A DNA stretch of 55,109 nt, from positions 1-55,109 of the forward strand of contig CACGHY010000006.1 in assembly GCA_902573085.1 (NCBI GenBank), given 5' to 3'. The position numbers and the translations under genes were made by a program. Source of the DNA: an uncultured Candidatus Poseidoniales archaeon. GTDB lineage: Archaea; Thermoplasmatota; Poseidoniia; Poseidoniales; Thalassarchaeaceae. Below the pieces are notes generated by a model. That model searched no databases and was not told the DNA's origin. It worked only from the letters and a program-made list of their open reading frames with translations. Shown piece by piece: positions 17,873-28,948 of the stretch (position 1 is the stretch's first letter; every line of letters begins with the position of its first letter).

Positions 17873-18820
17873 GTGAAACCACGACGTGGGGCTGCCATAT
17901 TCGTTTCCTCCATGATACTTATCTGCTGCTTTTCAACCAGTGGTTCGGCTCAAATTCTGCCCGAGGCCGATGTGGAATGCGAGGATTCGGTTACGTTGGA
18001 TATTTCTCCTGGTTCTGTAAAACAGACAATTGTTAATTGCGAACTGACAAATCCCACGTCCGGATCTGAGAGCATAGAAATCTCATACCAATCAGAAAAC
18101 CTGAACGTAGCTGGTCCGGAAAGCATCACAGTAGGAGGGGGGGAGTCTGTAGATTTCCAGATTACTGTAGCATCTGCAAGTGAGAACTCAGCCGGGATGT
18201 ACGAGATCAACGTGAGTGTCGTAGTCACTGAGTGGAACGGGATTCCAGTCAGTGTGTTCGGATTCTCCGATGAGGAAATGGTCGAAGTGGAGGTTCTACC
18301 ATACACGGTATGCTCTTCATCCAGTCCTTCTGCAATATTCTCTGAAGCGGGGGAGGACGTGGTCTTCACTGTTGTTTACAGTTGCGATAGCAACGAAGAA
18401 AGCTCTCTAGAAGTCTCATTACACCTCCTTGAAGAGGGTAGTAGCCAGGAAACTATGTGGCCGTCTGGATTCAATGATATGTCCGTAGATACTTGTAGAG
18501 TGGATAATCCAATGGGCTCGGTCAGCTGCGAGTTCATCCTGACCACGCCCTCCAACCTCCAGGAGAAGTGGGAGGGTTGCCTGATTGTGGTGGATGAAAA
18601 CACCGCCCCGGGATGGTCCTGTTCGAGTGATTTCGCTTTCCCACTTACCGTGAATGAGAAGGAGGCAGTGCTTCCTTCGGTAGGGATTAATGTGAATGGA
18701 ACGGTGTTGGAGGACCTTGGCCTCACTGGTGAGAATCAGAAGTTCTACATCGGTGGTGCAGTGGTGCTGGTAGTTGTTTTCATTTCGCTGTTTGTGATCT
18801 TGAGGCGCCGTAGTAAGTAG
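17873..18820 (+). CDS. Exported, C-terminally anchored surface protein
   Basis: This 315-residue protein has a signal peptide (about 1-26, ending GSAQ), an extracellular region rich in Ser, Glu and Val with beta-strand patterns typical of Ig-like/NEW3-type domains (for example TVGGGESVDFQITVASAS), paired cysteines, and a C-terminal membrane helix (about 287-309) followed by RRRSK. It should sit outside the cell, anchored in the membrane. No binding or catalytic motif is seen. The GTG at 17873 is used as start, 50-odd bases from the divergent thermosome promoter. Confidence 0.75.
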   Translation: MKPRRGAAIFVSSMILICCFSTSGSAQILPEADVECEDSVTLDISPGSVKQTIVNCELTNPTSGSESIEISYQSENLNVAGPESITVGGGESVDFQITVASASENSAGMYEINVSVVVTEWNGIPVSVFGFSDEEMVEVEVLPYTVCSSSSPSAIFSEAGEDVVFTVVYSCDSNEESSLEVSLHLLEEGSSQETMWPSGFNDMSVDTCRVDNPMGSVSCEFILTTPSNLQEKWEGCLIVVDENTAPGWSCSSDFAFPLTVNEKEAVLPSVGINVNGTVLEDLGLTGENQKFYIGGAVVLVVVFISLFVILRRRSK

Positions 18821-18888: not shown

Positions 18889-19215
18889 TTATCCTAAGAT
18901 TGTTACCATCCATCTGAGGAATAGAGCAGAGGTCGCGCCGATGACCAGGGAGGCGATTGAGGCGAATCCGCATATTGCGCTAAAGAAGTAGAAGAGAGCC
19001 ATGGTGAGCGACAGAAAGACCCCGAAATCTATCGCTTGACTCCTTCCGAGTCCTGAGTGTTTGATGACATGGTCCCTCTCCCTAATTGCGAAAACCAAGG
19101 TCGCTAGAGTCCCTACCAAAATGGCGTGGCCGACGAACCAACCGATTGAGTCTCCGAAAACCATGACTAATTCACCTTGGAATGTGCCGAGCACGATGGT
19201 GGCGATGTCGAACAC
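18889..19215 (-). CDS. Small membrane protein, three to four helices
   Basis: This 108-residue hydrophobic protein has membrane helices at about 18-40 (GDSIGWFVGHAILVGTLATL), 62-82 and 84-106. I do not recognise a family. The start is a GTG at 19215 (MFDIATIVLG). The first ~12 codons are repeated, with changes, in the decayed copy at 19934-20064, so the gene belonged to a duplicated cassette. It lies 48 bases downstream of the methyltransferase gene on the same strand. Confidence 0.6.
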   Translation of the reverse strand: MFDIATIVLGTFQGELVMVFGDSIGWFVGHAILVGTLATLVFAIRERDHVIKHSGLGRSQAIDFGVFLSLTMALFYFFSAICGFASIASLVIGATSALFLRWMVTILG

Positions 19216-19310
19216 AAAACAGACGACAGAGCGGGTATTCTTGAAATGTGCGAAGTTCGCTATTCAGTTCTTCTGAATAATGAACTGTCCTCCGATGATT
19301 TTTACAATGG
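19181..19310 (-). repeat. Intact copy of a diverged duplicated gene junction
   Basis: This 130-base stretch covers the last ~15 codons of the methyltransferase gene, the 48-base gap and the first ~12 codons of the small membrane protein. A diverged second copy in the same orientation occurs at 19934-20062. Identical blocks include TGTGCCGA, TATTCTTGAAAT and CTGAATAATGA (given on the + strand). Confidence 0.75.
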
Positions 19311-19839
19311 AGGCTTGGTTTTCTTTCACGAAGTCTTGTACAGCCTGTTTCACAGGAGCGGGTCCGCCTGTTTCCTGGCAGGGCAGAAAATAGTCGTCTC
19401 CCGTTAGGAACCCATCGGGCTTGACCTTAGGGAAATATAACTCAAGGTCAGACTTCACGGAATCATAGTCATGGCTTCCATCCACATACACCCAATCGAA
19501 GAAGTCGTTCGGAAACTCCGAGTGCGCTTCTGCAGAAGTTTTTCTGTGAAAGCTAACCTCTGGAGAGCCTGCGAATCTCTCTCTGACGGATTCAAAGATA
19601 TCGTCCATATCACTTTGACTACCAGCCTTCACACCTCCGTACCACCTAGAGGGAAAGGAGGGCTGGAACATCCAAGGGTCGATCAGATGAAGCTCTGAGG
19701 GATTGTTAATTTCGAGAATCCTCTGAGAGAAGTCTCCTTTCCAGACACCTATCTCGGCACATATAGACCCATTTGGCATCATCTTCAGAAGACGCTTTCT
19801 ATGATCTGTGATAAACGAGAAAAATCCCCCCCTTCTCAT
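19264..19839 (-). CDS. Class I SAM methyltransferase (Methyltransf_24 type)
   Basis: This 191-residue methyltransferase has motif I as GSICAEIGVWKGDFSQ (about residues 26-41), then LHLIDPW, a post-motif region FFDWVYVDGSHDYDSVKSDL and FPKVKPDGFLTGDDY. This arrangement is that of the Methyltransf_24 group, often found in polysaccharide and cephalosporin hydroxylase-like clusters and likely to act on sugars. The ATG at 19839 is preferred; the frame extends three codons to a TTG. Its 3' end is duplicated in a decayed form at about 20030-20062, evidence for a lost paralogue next door. Confidence 0.8.
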   Translation of the reverse strand: MRRGGFFSFITDHRKRLLKMMPNGSICAEIGVWKGDFSQRILEINNPSELHLIDPWMFQPSFPSRWYGGVKAGSQSDMDDIFESVRERFAGSPEVSFHRKTSAEAHSEFPNDFFDWVYVDGSHDYDSVKSDLELYFPKVKPDGFLTGDDYFLPCQETGGPAPVKQAVQDFVKENQASIVKIIGGQFIIQKN

Positions 19840-19933
19840 AAGAAACAAGCCCTAACAATGATAAAATGGAAGGGACTATGATATCAATTCTTTCTCAGAA
19901 TTCACATTATACCAAGGAGAATGTGCTCGATGG

Positions 19934-20064
19934 GATGTGCCGATTACGAGGGAGGCGAGGTCAAACATAAACAAATCAGAGAACGGATATTCTTGAAATA
20001 TGAGAGGGTCGCAACCCTGTTCTCCTGAATAATGAGCTTCCGCCCGAAAATTTTCAGTAATCAA
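19934..20064 (-). pseudogene. Relic of a second methyltransferase/membrane-protein junction
   Basis: On the minus strand the relic first reads KIFGRKLIIQEN, matching KIIGGQFIIQKN at the end of the intact methyltransferase. It then runs past the lost stop and continues to MFDLASLVIGTSH, matching MFDIATIVLGTFQ at the start of the intact membrane protein. Beyond those points both reading frames are lost; the methyltransferase frame has a stop two codons upstream of the match. A 1-base indel separates the copies in the spacer. The rest of 19840-20206 is AT-rich and holds no other gene I can see. It is the scar of a decayed paralogous cassette. Confidence 0.75.
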
Positions 20065-20206
20065 ACAGGTATTTTCTTAAAACTCCTAGTGAACAGGAAA
20101 ATAATGATTGGAGAAACCTACCACCTGACATGGGGGAATAGAAATTAGAAATTTTTTAAAAAGAGCTCTAAAGCCTCTACGGTCGTTTTCTTCCAATTTT
20201 GTTACC

Positions 20207-20890
20207 TTGGTAGATCAAAACTCAATTGTGAGGAAGGCATCATGGATTCTTGCAGCCGAAAAGGTTGAGGGAGACTATCTTGAGTTTGGAGTGTATAGAG
20301 GAGGGTCCCTAATCAAGGCATACAGCGAGATGGAGGCTGTTTATGAAGAACAAATGAGGGAGAGCGGCGGCAGGTCAAAGGAGGCGGCTCTGGAGGTGAA
20401 GAGGATTTGGTCGGAGATGAGGTTTTTCGCTTTCGATTCATTCCAGGGGTTACCAGAAATTACGGGTTTAGATGTCAAAGGTAATGATTTCGAAGAGGGA
20501 GGCTGGTCGAGCAACGAAGAAGTGTTCAGGAGTAATCTAGCTAAATCCCACTTTCCCATGGATAAATTAGTAACTGTTCCAGGTTGGTTCGAAAAAACGT
20601 GTATCGAGAAAACTAAGGAAAAGCACAAAATGAGTAAGGCTGCAATCATTCACATAGATTGCGATCTATATTCGTCTGCAAAAACTGTTCTTGAATTCGT
20701 TGAAGATCTACTAGTTGATGGGACTGTGCTGATTTTCGATGATTGGTTTAACTTTAAGGGGAATCCCAACCTTGGGGAACAGAAGGCTTTCAATGAGTGG
20801 TCTAATAATCTGAGTGATTGGGAATTTGTCCAATACCAAAAGGAGGGGCCCTGGAGAAACAGTTTCATTGCCTCTTATCAGGGAAATTAG
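20207..20890 (+). CDS. TylF/MycF-type O-methyltransferase
   Basis: This 227-residue protein has the TylF family layout. The SAM-binding GDYLEFGVYRGGSL (about residues 19-32) is followed by FFAFDSFQGLPE, the metal/substrate segment AAIIHIDCDLYSSAKTVLEF and GTVLIFDDWFNFKG with two acidic metal ligands. Members are Mg-dependent sugar O-methyltransferases, which fits the glycan context. The likely start is a TTG at 20207, with no good in-frame ATG before the SAM motif. The gene is preceded by a long AT-rich stretch that should hold its promoter. The GT2 gene follows directly. Confidence 0.85.
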   Translation: MVDQNSIVRKASWILAAEKVEGDYLEFGVYRGGSLIKAYSEMEAVYEEQMRESGGRSKEAALEVKRIWSEMRFFAFDSFQGLPEITGLDVKGNDFEEGGWSSNEEVFRSNLAKSHFPMDKLVTVPGWFEKTCIEKTKEKHKMSKAAIIHIDCDLYSSAKTVLEFVEDLLVDGTVLIFDDWFNFKGNPNLGEQKAFNEWSNNLSDWEFVQYQKEGPWRNSFIASYQGN

Positions 20891-20909
20891 AGAACGTGAC
20901 ACTAATTAC

Positions 20910-21755
20910 TTGAGTGCGACTGGGTTTGATGTGGATTCAGAAGTAGATGTGGTTATTCCCACCTTCAGAAGACCGGAAGCGCTTGCTTCCTGTCTGAGAT
21001 CACTAGAGTCGCAGACGTTGGCACCAGCTTCTATAGAGGTGGTTGACGACTCAGAGACCGACTATGGTCCTGGGATTTCGAGAAATATAGGGTGGAAGAG
21101 GGGGTCAGGGAGGTACGTTGCATTCATTGATGATGACTGCTTGGCGGATTGTGGTTGGATAGAAAACATACAGAGAGTATTTTCGGAGAATGACATCGGT
21201 GGTATTGAAGGCGGAATAACCACTACAGACATCGATGGGGAGATAATCGATTTTAATCCTCCTCATCGATTTAACTGGGATCGATTTAAAACTGCAAATA
21301 TGGCTATTAGAAGGGATATTCTCACTGAGATTGGTGGTTTCGATGAGCGATATTTCCTTCATAGAGAAGACACTGACCTAGCATGGAGAGTCATAGATGC
21401 TGGATACAGGATGGTTTGGGTACCAGAATGTAAGGTTCATCATCCTGAGCCAATAGGGGTACACGGAGCGGTTTATGGAGCATATCCTCGTTCAGAACAA
21501 TTACTATATCATTGCAATCCGAATAAGTTTGTCGAAAGCGCCGCGAGTTTGATTTCGCGGGAGAGCATAGCAGATGGCTCCCTTAGGAAACTCCAGAGAG
21601 ATATGAGGACGTTGCAACACCCTCCAGATGTGAAGCCACTCAGTAGGATTCAGTCATGGACCCTTTGGACAAGAGCATGGTTTTTGGCATTATTCTGGGC
21701 AATAAGAAAGGCAACTATTGGTGACCCAAAGAAATCTAGTTTATGTTTAAAATAA
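20910..21755 (+). CDS. Family 2 glycosyltransferase
   Basis: This GT-A fold glycosyltransferase transfers a sugar from a nucleotide-sugar. Motifs are VDVVIPTFRRPEALASCLRS, the nucleotide/metal-binding VAFIDDDCLADCGW, ANMAIRRDIL, and the acceptor/catalytic FLHREDTDLAWRVIDAGY. A C-terminal hydrophobic stretch (TRAWFLALFWAI) may touch the membrane. The frame is open back to an ATG at 20814 inside the methyltransferase gene. I prefer the TTG at 20910 because it avoids a 77-base overlap, but the longer start is possible. It should act with the adjacent methyl- and sulfotransferases. Confidence 0.85.
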   Translation: MSATGFDVDSEVDVVIPTFRRPEALASCLRSLESQTLAPASIEVVDDSETDYGPGISRNIGWKRGSGRYVAFIDDDCLADCGWIENIQRVFSENDIGGIEGGITTTDIDGEIIDFNPPHRFNWDRFKTANMAIRRDILTEIGGFDERYFLHREDTDLAWRVIDAGYRMVWVPECKVHHPEPIGVHGAVYGAYPRSEQLLYHCNPNKFVESAASLISRESIADGSLRKLQRDMRTLQHPPDVKPLSRIQSWTLWTRAWFLALFWAIRKATIGDPKKSSLCLK

Positions 21756-21766
21756 CGGCCATATCA

Positions 21767-21780
21767 TTTGTTTTTTGATT
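21767..21780 (+). terminator. T-rich transcript end after GT2 gene
   Basis: A run of T (six consecutive T at 21771-21776 within a T-rich tract) lies 11-25 bases after the GT2 stop, between convergent genes. Archaeal transcription commonly ends at such T-tracts without a hairpin. Confidence 0.4.
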
Positions 21781-22454
21781 TACTTTCTGTATCCAAACTC
21801 CGTGAAATCAATCTTAAATTTATTATATATTATTTCCTTGATTTCATCGTTCAGCTGTATATCTTCTCCTGAGTCTCTTGTCTTGTTCAAAACCTTTAAT
21901 TCATCGAAGTTAAATCTCTTTCTTATTTTCTCATAATCTTCGGGAAGATCCTCCATGCGACCAATGTGTTGCATTTTCGCCCCTCTTGAATGAATAATAC
22001 TGTATTGTGTCTTGAAGTGTCTATCACAAAGAAAATTTGGAATTTTGGATAATTTTCTGACGAAATCTTCGAAGGAGTCGTCATTTTTTAGATATCCAAA
22101 AAGATAATTCGAGTATAGGAATTGTGAATTGTCGGCCATATTGAACTTGTTTTTGTAGCAGGAAATTATTCTGCCATAGGGATTTCTGACGTATGCGAAT
22201 GAGAAGTATTTCCCTTTTTTTCTTGGGATTCTCTTGTGGGAGAATTCTCTAGAATGGAAATGGATTGATTTATTCTTAGGGAATTCTCCGAATATTGAGG
22301 TCTTAATTGAGGAGCTACCAGATTTTGCTACACTCGCGAATACTACTTCTTTTTCATCGAGTACTATGAAATCTGAAGAGTCCAGATTTCCATGAATAAT
22401 AACATGGGTTATGTCTCTGATGAACTGGTAGATATTTTTGAAAGAAAATCTCAT
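21780..22454 (-). CDS. Sulfotransferase (Sulfotransfer_2-like), AT-rich gene
   Basis: This 224-residue protein resembles carbohydrate sulfotransferases that move sulfate from PAPS to a sugar. The 5'-phosphosulfate loop is FASVAKSGSSSIKTSIF (about residues 35-51), and the 3'-phosphate motif is FAYVRNPYGRIISCYKNKF (about 80-98). The rest matches the general pattern of the family (FEDFVRKL, then a late HIGRMEDLPEDYEKI). Base composition is distinctly AT-rich and the protein is heavy in Lys, Asn, Phe and Ser compared with its neighbours, which suggests recent transfer. It is the first of three same-strand sulfotransferase genes. Confidence 0.8.
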   Translation of the reverse strand: MRFSFKNIYQFIRDITHVIIHGNLDSSDFIVLDEKEVVFASVAKSGSSSIKTSIFGEFPKNKSIHFHSREFSHKRIPRKKGKYFSFAYVRNPYGRIISCYKNKFNMADNSQFLYSNYLFGYLKNDDSFEDFVRKLSKIPNFLCDRHFKTQYSIIHSRGAKMQHIGRMEDLPEDYEKIRKRFNFDELKVLNKTRDSGEDIQLNDEIKEIIYNKFKIDFTEFGYRK

Positions 22455-22480: not shown

Positions 22481-23419
22481 CTAGATGATTACGGATTTGG
22501 GAATGTATTTCTCTAAATTTTCCATGAACTCTATGTCATCAATCAGATTAAGTCGAATTTTTTCAGTTAACTCATCAGAAATTTCCTGTTTTTCTGATTG
22601 CACATATTTCCACCCCTTGGATCTAATAGGATCCAATAATACCTTCCTCAAGCCTCTTGTTGGAATGACAACCTTCGCTAGTGAAAAGGCCCAATTTGGA
22701 GGGTTTCGCAGAAATCTCCTGTAAGCCGAGTTAGACAACTTTCCTCTAGGATTCTTCACACTTAGATCTCTAGGCATACCCGCTGGATCAATTCCAAGCC
22801 AATCACTGATTTCATCTAAGACCATTCTTGGATTGGAGGCAATAGACTTCAATTGAACTACTCTGACTCTTTCTTCCCCAATCTCATCAATCCAGTTTTT
22901 TACGTGAGATGAAAATCTTGGATACGTAAGGAAACCCCAAGTATCTGGGTCTTCGGGGCTAGCAATCCAATTCCGACTGTCTATTTTTGAAATTAAACTC
23001 TCAAAAGATGTTTTGAAGTGTACTGTTTTCTTCTGTTGGTGGAAAAGACTGATCATTAGGTCATAGGGATCTCTTACCGTGATTATCACTTTCGCTTCCG
23101 GCATAAGGTCTCTGACAGTTTCCAAGGCCCTTTTAGAATAAAGATGCTGAGGTGACTTGTCGATAATGAGTCTCTCGCTCTTGAAATAATCCATATCTGC
23201 CTCATGTGGCAGAAATAGAGTTCCTCGTGGTTTGCTCATTTCGAATGGATAGTCGACGACCCCTCCGAGCAAAAAACCACTCTCAACTGCTCCTGAGTTG
23301 ACTCTCTCCCACGGATGGTATACTTCCTTATGCTTTCTCAACCACAATAGAAGGGAAGTAGTCCCACATTTGGGGCCTCCGACGAGAAGGAGGTTTGGAG
23401 CAGGTTCTATAGCTCTCAT
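22481..23419 (-). CDS. Sulfotransferase (heparan sulfotransferase-like)
   Basis: This 312-residue PAPS-dependent sulfotransferase begins with the phosphosulfate-binding loop LLLVGGPKCGTTSLLLWLRK (about residues 10-29) and has the 3'-phosphate motif AKVIITVRDPYDLMISLFHQ (about 109-128). The conserved late segment VVQLKSIASNPRMVLDEISDWLGI is the family helix. It has no signal peptide or membrane segment. It probably sulfates sugar residues of the surface glycan. It is unlike its two neighbours in detail, so the three are separate enzymes, perhaps with different position specificity. Confidence 0.88.
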   Translation of the reverse strand: MRAIEPAPNLLLVGGPKCGTTSLLLWLRKHKEVYHPWERVNSGAVESGFLLGGVVDYPFEMSKPRGTLFLPHEADMDYFKSERLIIDKSPQHLYSKRALETVRDLMPEAKVIITVRDPYDLMISLFHQQKKTVHFKTSFESLISKIDSRNWIASPEDPDTWGFLTYPRFSSHVKNWIDEIGEERVRVVQLKSIASNPRMVLDEISDWLGIDPAGMPRDLSVKNPRGKLSNSAYRRFLRNPPNWAFSLAKVVIPTRGLRKVLLDPIRSKGWKYVQSEKQEISDELTEKIRLNLIDDIEFMENLEKYIPKSVII

Positions 23420-23461: not shown

Positions 23462-24376
23462 TTATTTTACTGCATTATTCTTGATGGTTTCCATCCACTC
23501 AGTTGTATCGAATTTGGTCAAATCTTGCAATTGTGCTAGATCTTCGCATACTTCCTCTTCACAGATGGAAAAATGAAATTTGTCAAGATGCTCTGGCTTG
23601 CTTGGATCGGCACGTCTACCTAATAGTGGCAAATAGTAGATATTGATGTCTCTCGATACGAGGTAATTTACAACTGGTGACTTCAAGAAACTGGGAACAA
23701 AAGAAAATGTTATCCTCATTAGTTTTCCTAAAAAGGTAATTTTTCTTCGCTTAGCTGCCCTGTTTGAGTTGGCTAAATGGTTTATTGAGTAGTTATGTTT
23801 GTGGATTCCAAGGAATTCCTCAATTTCACTAAGCACCGTCTCTGGCGAATCTCGCATCCTGGAGCTGTCGAAAATATAGAAATCTGATAGAGAGAAAACC
23901 CCCAGCCAGCGGGCCATTGACTTTCCATATAGTGAGTCTTCCTTGAGTCTAGGATCCTTCCACGCGACCTGGAAGTCGTCCCAATCGGCCCCCCATGTTT
24001 TGTCTAATCCAATATCAGTGATCATCCTCCAATGACTAAATGTTCTGTCAACAGGTTCTCGAAGAGAAATAATGAATTTGGGGTCCTCAAACTTCTCTGA
24101 AATCCTAGCTGGAGAGATGGGGCAGGAAAACGTGTGTATGGACCCATCTAGCCTTATGCCGTCTCCTTTGAATAATCTGAAGTATTCTGTCCAATCTGGT
24201 TCTTCATTAGACCTTCCAAATGTCCCCTTATGGGATGAAATGATGTTTGGCTCCTTTGGATCTGATAAGCAGATTGAGGGGTTCTGAGACAGCGTGCTGG
24301 CTAGCCAGGTTGTTCCGGCCTTTGGAACGCCAATTAGGAATGCATGAGTCCCGGAAACCCTCTCTGAGTCGCCCAT
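23462..24376 (-). CDS. Sulfotransferase
   Basis: This 304-residue protein has the P-loop-like motif FLIGVPKAGTTWLASTLSQN (about residues 13-32) and the 3'-phosphate motif FIISLREPVDRTFSHWRMI (about 100-118). FYIFDSSRMRDSPETVLSEI, the usual helix before the substrate loop, follows. It acts on a carbohydrate acceptor by analogy with the family. The ATG at 24376 is close to the divergent homoserine kinase-like gene start (33 bases). The PAPS synthesis genes needed by all three sulfotransferases are not in this window. Confidence 0.88.
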   Translation of the reverse strand: MGDSERVSGTHAFLIGVPKAGTTWLASTLSQNPSICLSDPKEPNIISSHKGTFGRSNEEPDWTEYFRLFKGDGIRLDGSIHTFSCPISPARISEKFEDPKFIISLREPVDRTFSHWRMITDIGLDKTWGADWDDFQVAWKDPRLKEDSLYGKSMARWLGVFSLSDFYIFDSSRMRDSPETVLSEIEEFLGIHKHNYSINHLANSNRAAKRRKITFLGKLMRITFSFVPSFLKSPVVNYLVSRDINIYYLPLLGRRADPSKPEHLDKFHFSICEEEVCEDLAQLQDLTKFDTTEWMETIKNNAVK

Positions 24377-24409: not shown

Positions 24410-25363
24410 GTGGAGAGAAGAAGCAATATGTGTCGAAGTACAGGGAGGTCTGTGACTAACAATGTACGGCTAGAAGACGCAAATTGGCTACTGTCTCTAG
24501 CTGGACTCCCGAACTCGGAGAAGATGTCCCCTCTTACAGGAGGCTGGGACAACACGAATTTCCTCCTTGATTTGGCTGATGGCAGTAGGGTCGTGCTGAA
24601 GGCATGGTTTGCAAATCGGGTAAAAGAGGTCGATAGGGTAATACTCAGGCACATTCACCTTGATAATCACGGAATTCCGACTACGGTCCCAATAAAGCTC
24701 GCTGATAACAGGAGTTTTGCTGATAAGAACGGGGTCGCTTGGACTCTACTTCCGTATATCCCAGGAGGCCATCTTGGAAATGATTCCGAATCCCTAACTG
24801 ACTTGGGCAAGGTATTGGCTAGAATGCACGAGATACCCACTTCGGATTGTTTTCCGACAGAATATCGGATGGGTTTTTCTCTTTTCGAAGAGGTTGCTTC
24901 TCTATCGAAGGATGGGGGTCCAGATCCTTCTTTTTTGGGACTCCTCGCTTCTGAAGCCAGTGCCATACAGGAAGCCCTAGAAGAAGAAATCCCCGTTGGA
25001 ATTCTACACGGTGATCTGTTTCCGGACAATGTCATTGGGAATGGGAAGGTCGGTGCGATTCTCGACTTAGAGGAGGCTTGGATAGGTCCGAAGGTTTTCG
25101 ATTTGGCCATGGCGTTCGTGGGATTTGGATGGGAAGGTACACAGCCATTACTGAACAGGTGGGAGTCACTGATTGAAGGTTATCAAAGCATCAGACTACT
25201 TGGAGATAAGGAGATTGAGTCGCTTCCTATGATGCACAGGTTTGCAACTCTTGCCATTGCTTGTTGGAGGTATTGGAAGCATAATCTGGTTCATTCAGAG
25301 GAAATGCTATCCAAGAGGTATCTAGAAATGGTAGATAGGCTGGAGATTGAGTTTGAATTCTAG
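24410..25363 (+). CDS. Homoserine kinase type II-like (APH/ChoK fold) kinase
   Basis: This 317-residue kinase has the aminoglycoside phosphotransferase fold. LTGGWDNTNFLLDLADGSR matches the nucleotide-binding glycine-rich strand, VVLKAW holds the ATP-binding lysine, the catalytic loop is GILHGDLFPDNVIG (about residues 197-210), and the Mg-binding Asp is in AILDLEEA. The HGDLFPDN form is typical of ThrB type II homoserine kinases. A threonine synthase gene nearby (28949) supports that role, but other small-alcohol kinases share the fold. The start is GTG 24410 or ATG 24428. It is followed closely by a MOSC gene. Confidence 0.65.
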   Translation: MERRSNMCRSTGRSVTNNVRLEDANWLLSLAGLPNSEKMSPLTGGWDNTNFLLDLADGSRVVLKAWFANRVKEVDRVILRHIHLDNHGIPTTVPIKLADNRSFADKNGVAWTLLPYIPGGHLGNDSESLTDLGKVLARMHEIPTSDCFPTEYRMGFSLFEEVASLSKDGGPDPSFLGLLASEASAIQEALEEEIPVGILHGDLFPDNVIGNGKVGAILDLEEAWIGPKVFDLAMAFVGFGWEGTQPLLNRWESLIEGYQSIRLLGDKEIESLPMMHRFATLAIACWRYWKHNLVHSEEMLSKRYLEMVDRLEIEFEF

Positions 25364-27730: not shown

Positions 27731-28915
27731 TTAGGATTGGCTGGCCAACAGGGCCTGTTCAATGTCCGACCATAGGTCGTCAACATCCTCTATTCCAACG
27801 CTCATCCTCACGAAACCTGGGACAATCCCCGCCTCTAGCCGATCCTCCTCGGGAACGAAAATATCGCTCGTGTTGAAAGGACAAGAAACTAGGCTCTCGA
27901 TCCCTCCTAGGCTTGTCGCTTCGAAGATGATGTCGAGCGCTCTGACGAAGCGCATTGCTCTCTCATCCCCGCCCTTTACCACAAATGATAGCATGCCCGT
28001 CCCCTTCGGTACGATTCGTTTGGCCACCTCGTAGTCAGCATAGCTCTCCAGAGAGGGGTGGTTGACAGCGCTGATTTCTGGGTGTTCTTGCATTCTTCTA
28101 GCCAGTTCAGAAGAGTTTGATGCGTGTATTGGCATCCTGGCATGAAGGGTTCTCATGCCCCTCTCCAGAAGATAGCACATGAAGGCGTCAGCGGTCCCCC
28201 CTAGCCTGGTTTTGGTCTTGAATACCCCCTTGATTAGATCGGATCTTCCGACAACAATTCCTGCTGTCAAGTCGGTGTGTCCGTTGAGGAACTTAGTTCC
28301 TGAGTGAATGACGACATCGAACCCCATTGAAATCGGTTGACAGGCCCATGGGGTAGCGAATGTATTATCGACAACCGAAATCAGGCCATACTCCTTCGCT
28401 ATTGATGCCATAGCCTCCAAATCACACACCTTCAGTACGGGATTGGTAATTGTCTCGACATAGAGTACCTTGGTGTTCTCGTTTATTGCGGCTTCGAACG
28501 AAGAGGGGTCTCTGATGTCTGCCATGGTTACGTCTATTCCGAATCTGGGGAAATCTGAGGTTAGTAGGCCATATGTCCCCCCATAGATATCTGCGGATGT
28601 GACCATGTGATCTCCCTTCGAAAGCATGGAAAGAAGGGTGGAAGAGATCGCGGCCATTCCACTTGCAAGTGTCTCTCCGTCCTCGGCTCCCTCCAAAGAG
28701 GCTACCTTCGAAGCCACGGCCTCGGAGTTCACACTCGACCAGCGACTGTAGATCAGGGAGTGCTGGCCGCCATCGGCCCAATCTCGATACCTGTCGTCAT
28801 TGAGCTGATAGGTAGAGGTGGTGAATATAGGAGTGACTGCGGCCCCCTCCAAGTGGTTGGTTCCGGACCAGACGGCTCTAGTGGAGAATGCGCGGTCTGA
28901 AAAGTCGTCATCCAT
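27731..28915 (-). CDS. Transsulfuration-family PLP enzyme (cystathionine gamma-synthase-like)
   Basis: This 394-residue enzyme is a second member of the Cys/Met metabolism PLP family in the window. The motifs FTTSTYQLND, YSRWSSVNSEAV, ASGMAAISS, VDNTFATPWACQP, the Schiff-base lysine in VIHSGTKFLNGHTD, and a C-terminal RMSVGIEDVDDLWSDI are present. The YSRWSS in place of the common YSRxxNPT suggests a different substrate from the paralogue at 12287. Candidate activities are cystathionine gamma-synthase, O-acyl-homoserine sulfhydrylase or methionine gamma-lyase. The ATG at 28915 (MDDDFSDRAFSTRAV) is preferred over a start 8 codons earlier. The upstream neighbour is threonine synthase. Confidence 0.88.
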   Translation of the reverse strand: MDDDFSDRAFSTRAVWSGTNHLEGAAVTPIFTTSTYQLNDDRYRDWADGGQHSLIYSRWSSVNSEAVASKVASLEGAEDGETLASGMAAISSTLLSMLSKGDHMVTSADIYGGTYGLLTSDFPRFGIDVTMADIRDPSSFEAAINENTKVLYVETITNPVLKVCDLEAMASIAKEYGLISVVDNTFATPWACQPISMGFDVVIHSGTKFLNGHTDLTAGIVVGRSDLIKGVFKTKTRLGGTADAFMCYLLERGMRTLHARMPIHASNSSELARRMQEHPEISAVNHPSLESYADYEVAKRIVPKGTGMLSFVVKGGDERAMRFVRALDIIFEATSLGGIESLVSCPFNTSDIFVPEEDRLEAGIVPGFVRMSVGIEDVDDLWSDIEQALLASQS

Positions 28916-28948
28916 GACATGGGATTGGCAAGACAGCAATAACCATAC

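Follow-up and report, generated by a model that had tools for sequence, protein, structure and literature searches.

A sulfation island of other-clade ancestry in a Candidatus Poseidoniales genome, and a probable local duplicate of a gene junction decaying within it

Within a window of 55,109 nucleotides (the whole stretch of DNA analysed, from contig CACGHY010000006.1 of an uncultured Candidatus Poseidoniales archaeon, here G000), a block carrying a sulfation island belongs to another clade than its flanks. A thermosome gene and the gene content are likewise suggestive of a marine member of the Poseidoniales (Marine Group II). We hold with moderate confidence that this is a replacement-type island imported by homologous recombination, and that a truncated second copy of a gene junction inside it (c2) is a decaying local duplication and not a site of exchange. 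The second copy, on which the original prediction had centred, is a minor by-product; the block swap is the real story, because nearly every relative has another gene set at the same chromosomal spot. The locus comprises the following features:

18502-18555, no strand: left breakpoint of the imported block, in the CARDB-like gene (17873-18820), where informative sites change from G001-like to G007-like and dS shows a step
18889-19215, minus strand: MP, a hydrophobic protein of 108 aa, probably of the membrane, which forms the fixed left border of the variable region; clade-B allele here
19264-19848, minus strand: MT, a Methyltransf_24-type methyltransferase (PF13578; open reading frame and Pfam match)
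20069-20087, no strand: conserved box AGGTATTTTCTTAAAACTC between the MT leader and the TylF-type gene, common to this genome, G007 and G026
20207-20890, plus strand: TylF-type methyltransferase (PF05711; Pfam match), start codon uncertain, 93% to G007
20814-21755, plus strand: family 2 glycosyltransferase (Pfam match), 92% to G007
21780-22454, minus strand: sulfotransferase (PF03567; Pfam match), 91% to G007
22481-23419, minus strand: sulfotransferase (PF00685; Pfam match), 94% to G007
23462-24376, minus strand: sulfotransferase (PF00685; Pfam match), most widespread island family, with the right breakpoint in its 5' end
24326-24362, no strand: right breakpoint of the imported block, in the 5' end of this last sulfotransferase, where informative sites return to G001-like
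24410-25363, plus strand: APH-family kinase (PF01636; Pfam match and trees), fixed right border of the variable region, native allele

The left flank is ~86-93% identical to the clade A relatives G001, G012 and G022 up to ~18.4-18.5 kb, where similarity collapses; it resumes at ~24.36 kb, with values to G001 of mostly 81-97% from 24.4 kb onwards, and the kinase at the right flank matches G001 and G012, not G022. The part from the TylF-type gene to the sulfotransferases is ~91% identical to G007, a genome of another clade, and has no close counterpart in G001, G012 or G022. Synonymous divergence follows the same pattern: most flanking genes have a dS to G001 of 0.34-0.45, genes inside the block are saturated or lack a counterpart there, and dS to G007 is 0.26-0.40 inside the block and ~1.2 or more in the flanking genes. 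The purH tree places the genome with clade A (approximately unbiased (AU) test rejecting clade B, p 2.7e-47) and the kinase tree likewise rejects clade B (p 1.4e-10), while in the MP tree it falls with clade B at a support of 99 (AU test rejecting clade A, p 0.0026); for the 3' part of the CARDB-like gene the tree gives no resolved placement. Ancestry thus switches at both ends of the block, and the position of both breakpoints inside conserved genes, as expected for homologous recombination, suggests that by this mechanism the resident alleles, from the CARDB-like gene (18502-18555) to the last sulfotransferase (24326-24362), would have been replaced by DNA of the other clade.

A mosaic of this kind could also be produced by chimeric assembly or binning, and the genome is indeed a fragmented metagenome bin (1.16 Mb, 62.6% complete, 55 contigs). 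However, the longest exact matches between the parental proxies near the joins are 11 and 17 nt, which is short for assembly; the block has native sequence on either side within one contig, and the same gene order occurs independently in G007 and G026; we consider a chimera highly improbable. Scans of viral contigs, which detect close relatives only, yielded nothing related to the TylF-type, MP or kinase proteins that would point to a viral carrier. Farther along the window, a cystathionine gamma-synthase-type gene (27731-28939) has a dS of ~0.08 to G001 and G012, compared with ~0.35 for the backbone otherwise; another recombination tract, of recent date, is suggested here.

Of 28 genomes of the genus, mostly fragmented and incomplete, the 22 that carry MP entered the comparison of the variable region, with loci counted from the retrieved stretches; no MP match was obtained in G003, G008, G014, G015, G017 and G025. 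In 19 of the 22, a region of 2.4-5.2 kb lies between MP and the APH-family kinase, with a left border of thermosome, CARDB-like gene and MP and a right border formed by the kinase, an arrangement found in part in other genera; the exceptions are G006, G020 and G024, where the contig ended or no kinase was detected. Several further genera of the family also have MP between the CARDB-like gene on one side and glycosyl- or sulfotransferase-like genes on the other. Island open reading frames fall into 19 families, mostly sulfotransferases, glycosyltransferases and methyltransferases; most families tested match Pfam models of these three kinds, and F7, F14 and F15 have no Pfam match. Sister genomes differ in their gene sets and distant ones can have a set in common: the clade A sisters G001, G012 and G005 carry a set unlike that of G022 and G027, and the distant G026 shares its set with this genome and G007. 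The original prediction that cassettes are swapped in the sulfation island is borne out by the differing genes upstream of MP and by the differing ancestries of island, MP and flanks.

Several observations concern individual genes of the region. The kinase of G022 and G027 is only ~63% identical to the one here (24410-25363), compared with mostly 81-95% for neighbouring genes, and the right border gene therefore seems to have been swapped too. Within 20150-20210, a standard start codon is lacking in the TylF-type gene at the position of the ATG of G026 and G004; slightly further in, G007 has TTG and this genome has TTA at that place. The true start of the family 2 glycosyltransferase (20814-21755) is probably near or after 20870. 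In G024 (locus L092) the variable region contains a tandem pair of a sulfotransferase-like gene with 66% DNA identity, and in G006 (locus L087) the first island gene, of family F7, is split into two overlapping frames that are intact as one gene in G001, G012 and G005.

MP itself (18889-19215) is a widely conserved small hydrophobic protein bordering the variable region; it has no Pfam match, and homologues occur in 59 of the 147 genomes searched. MT orthologues adjoin MP in G026, G010, G004 and G023 (72-73%), and the gene upstream of MP varies among genomes. Of the 29 upstream regions inspected, 28 have a TT[CG]AA box beginning 29 or 30 nt ahead of the MP start, the spacing expected for the TATA-like element of a leaderless archaeal gene. 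Because the upstream gene varies, the conserved part consists of the start of MP and what is likely its promoter, and the junction looks conserved because this promoter sits in it.

The junction is present twice in this locus:

19178-19302, minus strand: c1, the functional MT/MP junction
19931-20054, minus strand: c2, a dead copy of the MT 3' end, the spacer with the MP promoter box and the first 12 MP codons, 75% identical to c1
19876-19968, minus strand: MP-start remnant frame in c2, 30 codons, stopping just short of the longest MT frame and part of the open reading frame 19876-20064

Local alignment of the two copies gives 75% identity over 125 bp with one 1-nt gap, and BLAST retrieves the repeat with an E value of 3.5e-17 in the genome itself and 7.9e-18 within the locus. 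The alignment scores 61, and none of 1000 dinucleotide shuffles exceeds 18, so that the similarity withstands the shuffled controls against which it had been suggested that it might disappear. The repeat had thus been recognized correctly: its predicted limits (19181-19310 and 19934-20062) are accurate to ~8 bases, the sequence pairs KIFGRKLIIQEN/KIIGGQFIIQKN and MFDLASLVIGT/MFDIATIVLGT are both present, and both genes are truncated in the second copy. In c2 the MT stop codon is lost, the spacer has a 1-nt deletion and the MP frame closes after 30 codons (19968-19876); both gene ends are dead, while the TT[CG]AA-type promoter box is intact 29 nt upstream of the ATG of the remnant frame. The order on the minus strand is the conserved box (20087-20069), c2, a short filler, the MT leader, MT, c1 and MP. 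This is the sole such repeat in the locus, BLAST against the genome (a bin 62.6% complete) returned no third copy, and among the 23 loci examined a junction repeat occurs here only. Two further interpretations of the repeat were rejected. A full second cassette is contradicted by MT and MP each being single in the bin. Capture of c2 as a promoter for MT, compatible with the intact box at -29, was set aside as less likely, since MT has an AT-rich stretch of its own ~28 nt before its likely ATG.

Relatedness to G007, whose island is the nearest to this one, shows a second step inside the block. Divergence from G007 at four-fold sites is 51% in MP and the 3' end of the CARDB-like gene versus 22% in the island genes (Fisher p 4e-7; for MP alone, p 2e-4), and MP and the island therefore do not have one common history with G007. 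The step falls between MP and the TylF-type gene, in the interval that holds MT and c2. In G007, MT is absent and ~20 codons of its 3' end remain beside MP; this MT-deleted junction and c2 lie at the same distance from the conserved box. G007 has an MP native to clade B (pS 0.48-0.52 relative to its sisters) and an island foreign to those sisters.

Local duplication is the most likely origin of c2, ahead of its being a seam between two alleles. Some 124-132 bp, comprising the MT end, the MP promoter and the MP start, would have been copied into the MT leader within the imported block, presumably by a local ectopic duplication such as template switching, and would now be decaying; on this view c2 corresponds to a gene junction only because one happened to lie within the copied segment. 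A sister relationship of c1 and c2 has the higher likelihood, by 3.3 log units overall, 6.2 for the MP side and 1.1 for the MT side, but does not reach significance (AU p for the alternatives of 0.11 for the whole stretch, 0.05 for the MP side and 0.2-0.3 for the MT side). Around the copy, similarity to the G026 leader is significant for the 13 nt separating c2 from the conserved box (p 0.006) and not significant for the 36 nt that follow c2 (p 0.11), and the G004 leader has no significant match to the empty site. Two observations count against local duplication: c2 lies in the interval of the G007 step, which a purely local duplication does not predict, and the equal box spacing in c2 and G007 would be an unexplained coincidence if the two arose independently. 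Alternatively, c2 could be the seam of a second exchange, in which unequal crossover joined a G007-like allele lacking MT (box, MT remnant, junction and MP start) upstream of a resident MT-MP allele, the MT-less junction with 12 MP codons remaining as a scar. Consistent with this are the fall in four-fold divergence across the interval, the presence in G007 of exactly one MP-junction-MT remnant directly adjoining the conserved box, and the unbroken alignment of the c2 region to G007, which runs from the MP start across the box and on into the island. On the MP side, however, c2 has derived sites in common with c1 and not with G007, and the 11 nt between the box and the MT remnant differ between c2 and G007; we regard such a seam as possible but doubtful.

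The duplicated junction could instead have been a crossover site, with a c2-bearing donor crossing over at the junction native to the G007 lineage, so that the island swap and the MT deletion in G007 arose in one step. The native MP and foreign island of G007 and the equal box-to-junction spacing would fit, but G007 has none of the private changes of c2 in its MT remnant, and a plain MT deletion in G007 accounts for the same structure; we consider such a crossover quite improbable. An MT-deletion scar shared by G000 and G007 was also rejected, the equal spacing speaking for it and the junction tree and the 11 nt at the scar against it. We give limited credence to a broader reading, in which the MP promoter and start form a reusable left border, a homologous crossover site beside changing cassettes, with c2 a frozen exchange intermediate and MT loss, as in G007, one outcome. 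The original prediction that cassettes are exchanged at the duplicated junction is not supported: the outer breakpoints lie 1.4 kb and 4.3 kb away from c2, which is located inside the imported block, likelihood favours c1 and c2 as sisters, and the repeat, which exchange at repeated junctions would place at many cassette edges, is found in 1 of 23 loci. The second G007 step, which falls in the interval between MP and the TylF-type gene, points the other way. Cassettes are probably not exchanged at c2 itself, and c2 is probably without function.

The locus agrees with a region type already described, the replacement flexible genomic islands exchanged by homologous recombination, with Haloquadratum walsbyi among the described cases (Lopez-Perez et al. 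2014, PMC4033161). Like these, it combines a fixed chromosomal place (conserved flanking genes in 19 of the 22 MP-bearing genomes) and similar functions (the 19 families above) with lineage-specific genes, and the island is younger than its flanks, with synonymous-divergence steps at the edges (four-fold divergence between G000 and G007 of 22% in the island versus 58-80% in flanking genes). Unlike the published islands, it is small (2.4-5.2 kb), is exchanged between species-level clades and not strains of one species, and has its breakpoints in an unannotated CARDB-like gene and a sulfotransferase; nor are the islands of G000 and G007 near-identical, as those of published strain pairs are. In the same archaeal group, the proteorhodopsin gene of Ca. 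Poseidoniales is replaced at a fixed place, a horizontally acquired version taking the place of the resident at the same locus, possibly by homologous recombination (PMC6461757), although that case involves a single gene and no glycan cassette. No earlier description of this island in Marine Group II was found in the literature searched.

From its gene families, the island is predicted to modify surface glycans, and thus the sugar coat, or other sulfated molecules. Archaeal sulfotransferases that act on surface glycans in N-glycosylation are described for Halobacterium salinarum (PMC11980604), a possible parallel to the island proteins, though not described there as part of a variable island. 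A pathway leading to the sulfate donor PAPS is encoded in Marine Group IIb genomes (PMC6864105). Marine Group II-type planktonic archaea are abundant and uncultured, and their surface variation is little known. Overall, with its small size, fixed place, allele swaps between species and breakpoints located to tens of bases, this sulfation and glycosylation locus offers a compact system for testing whether virus pressure drives such swaps.
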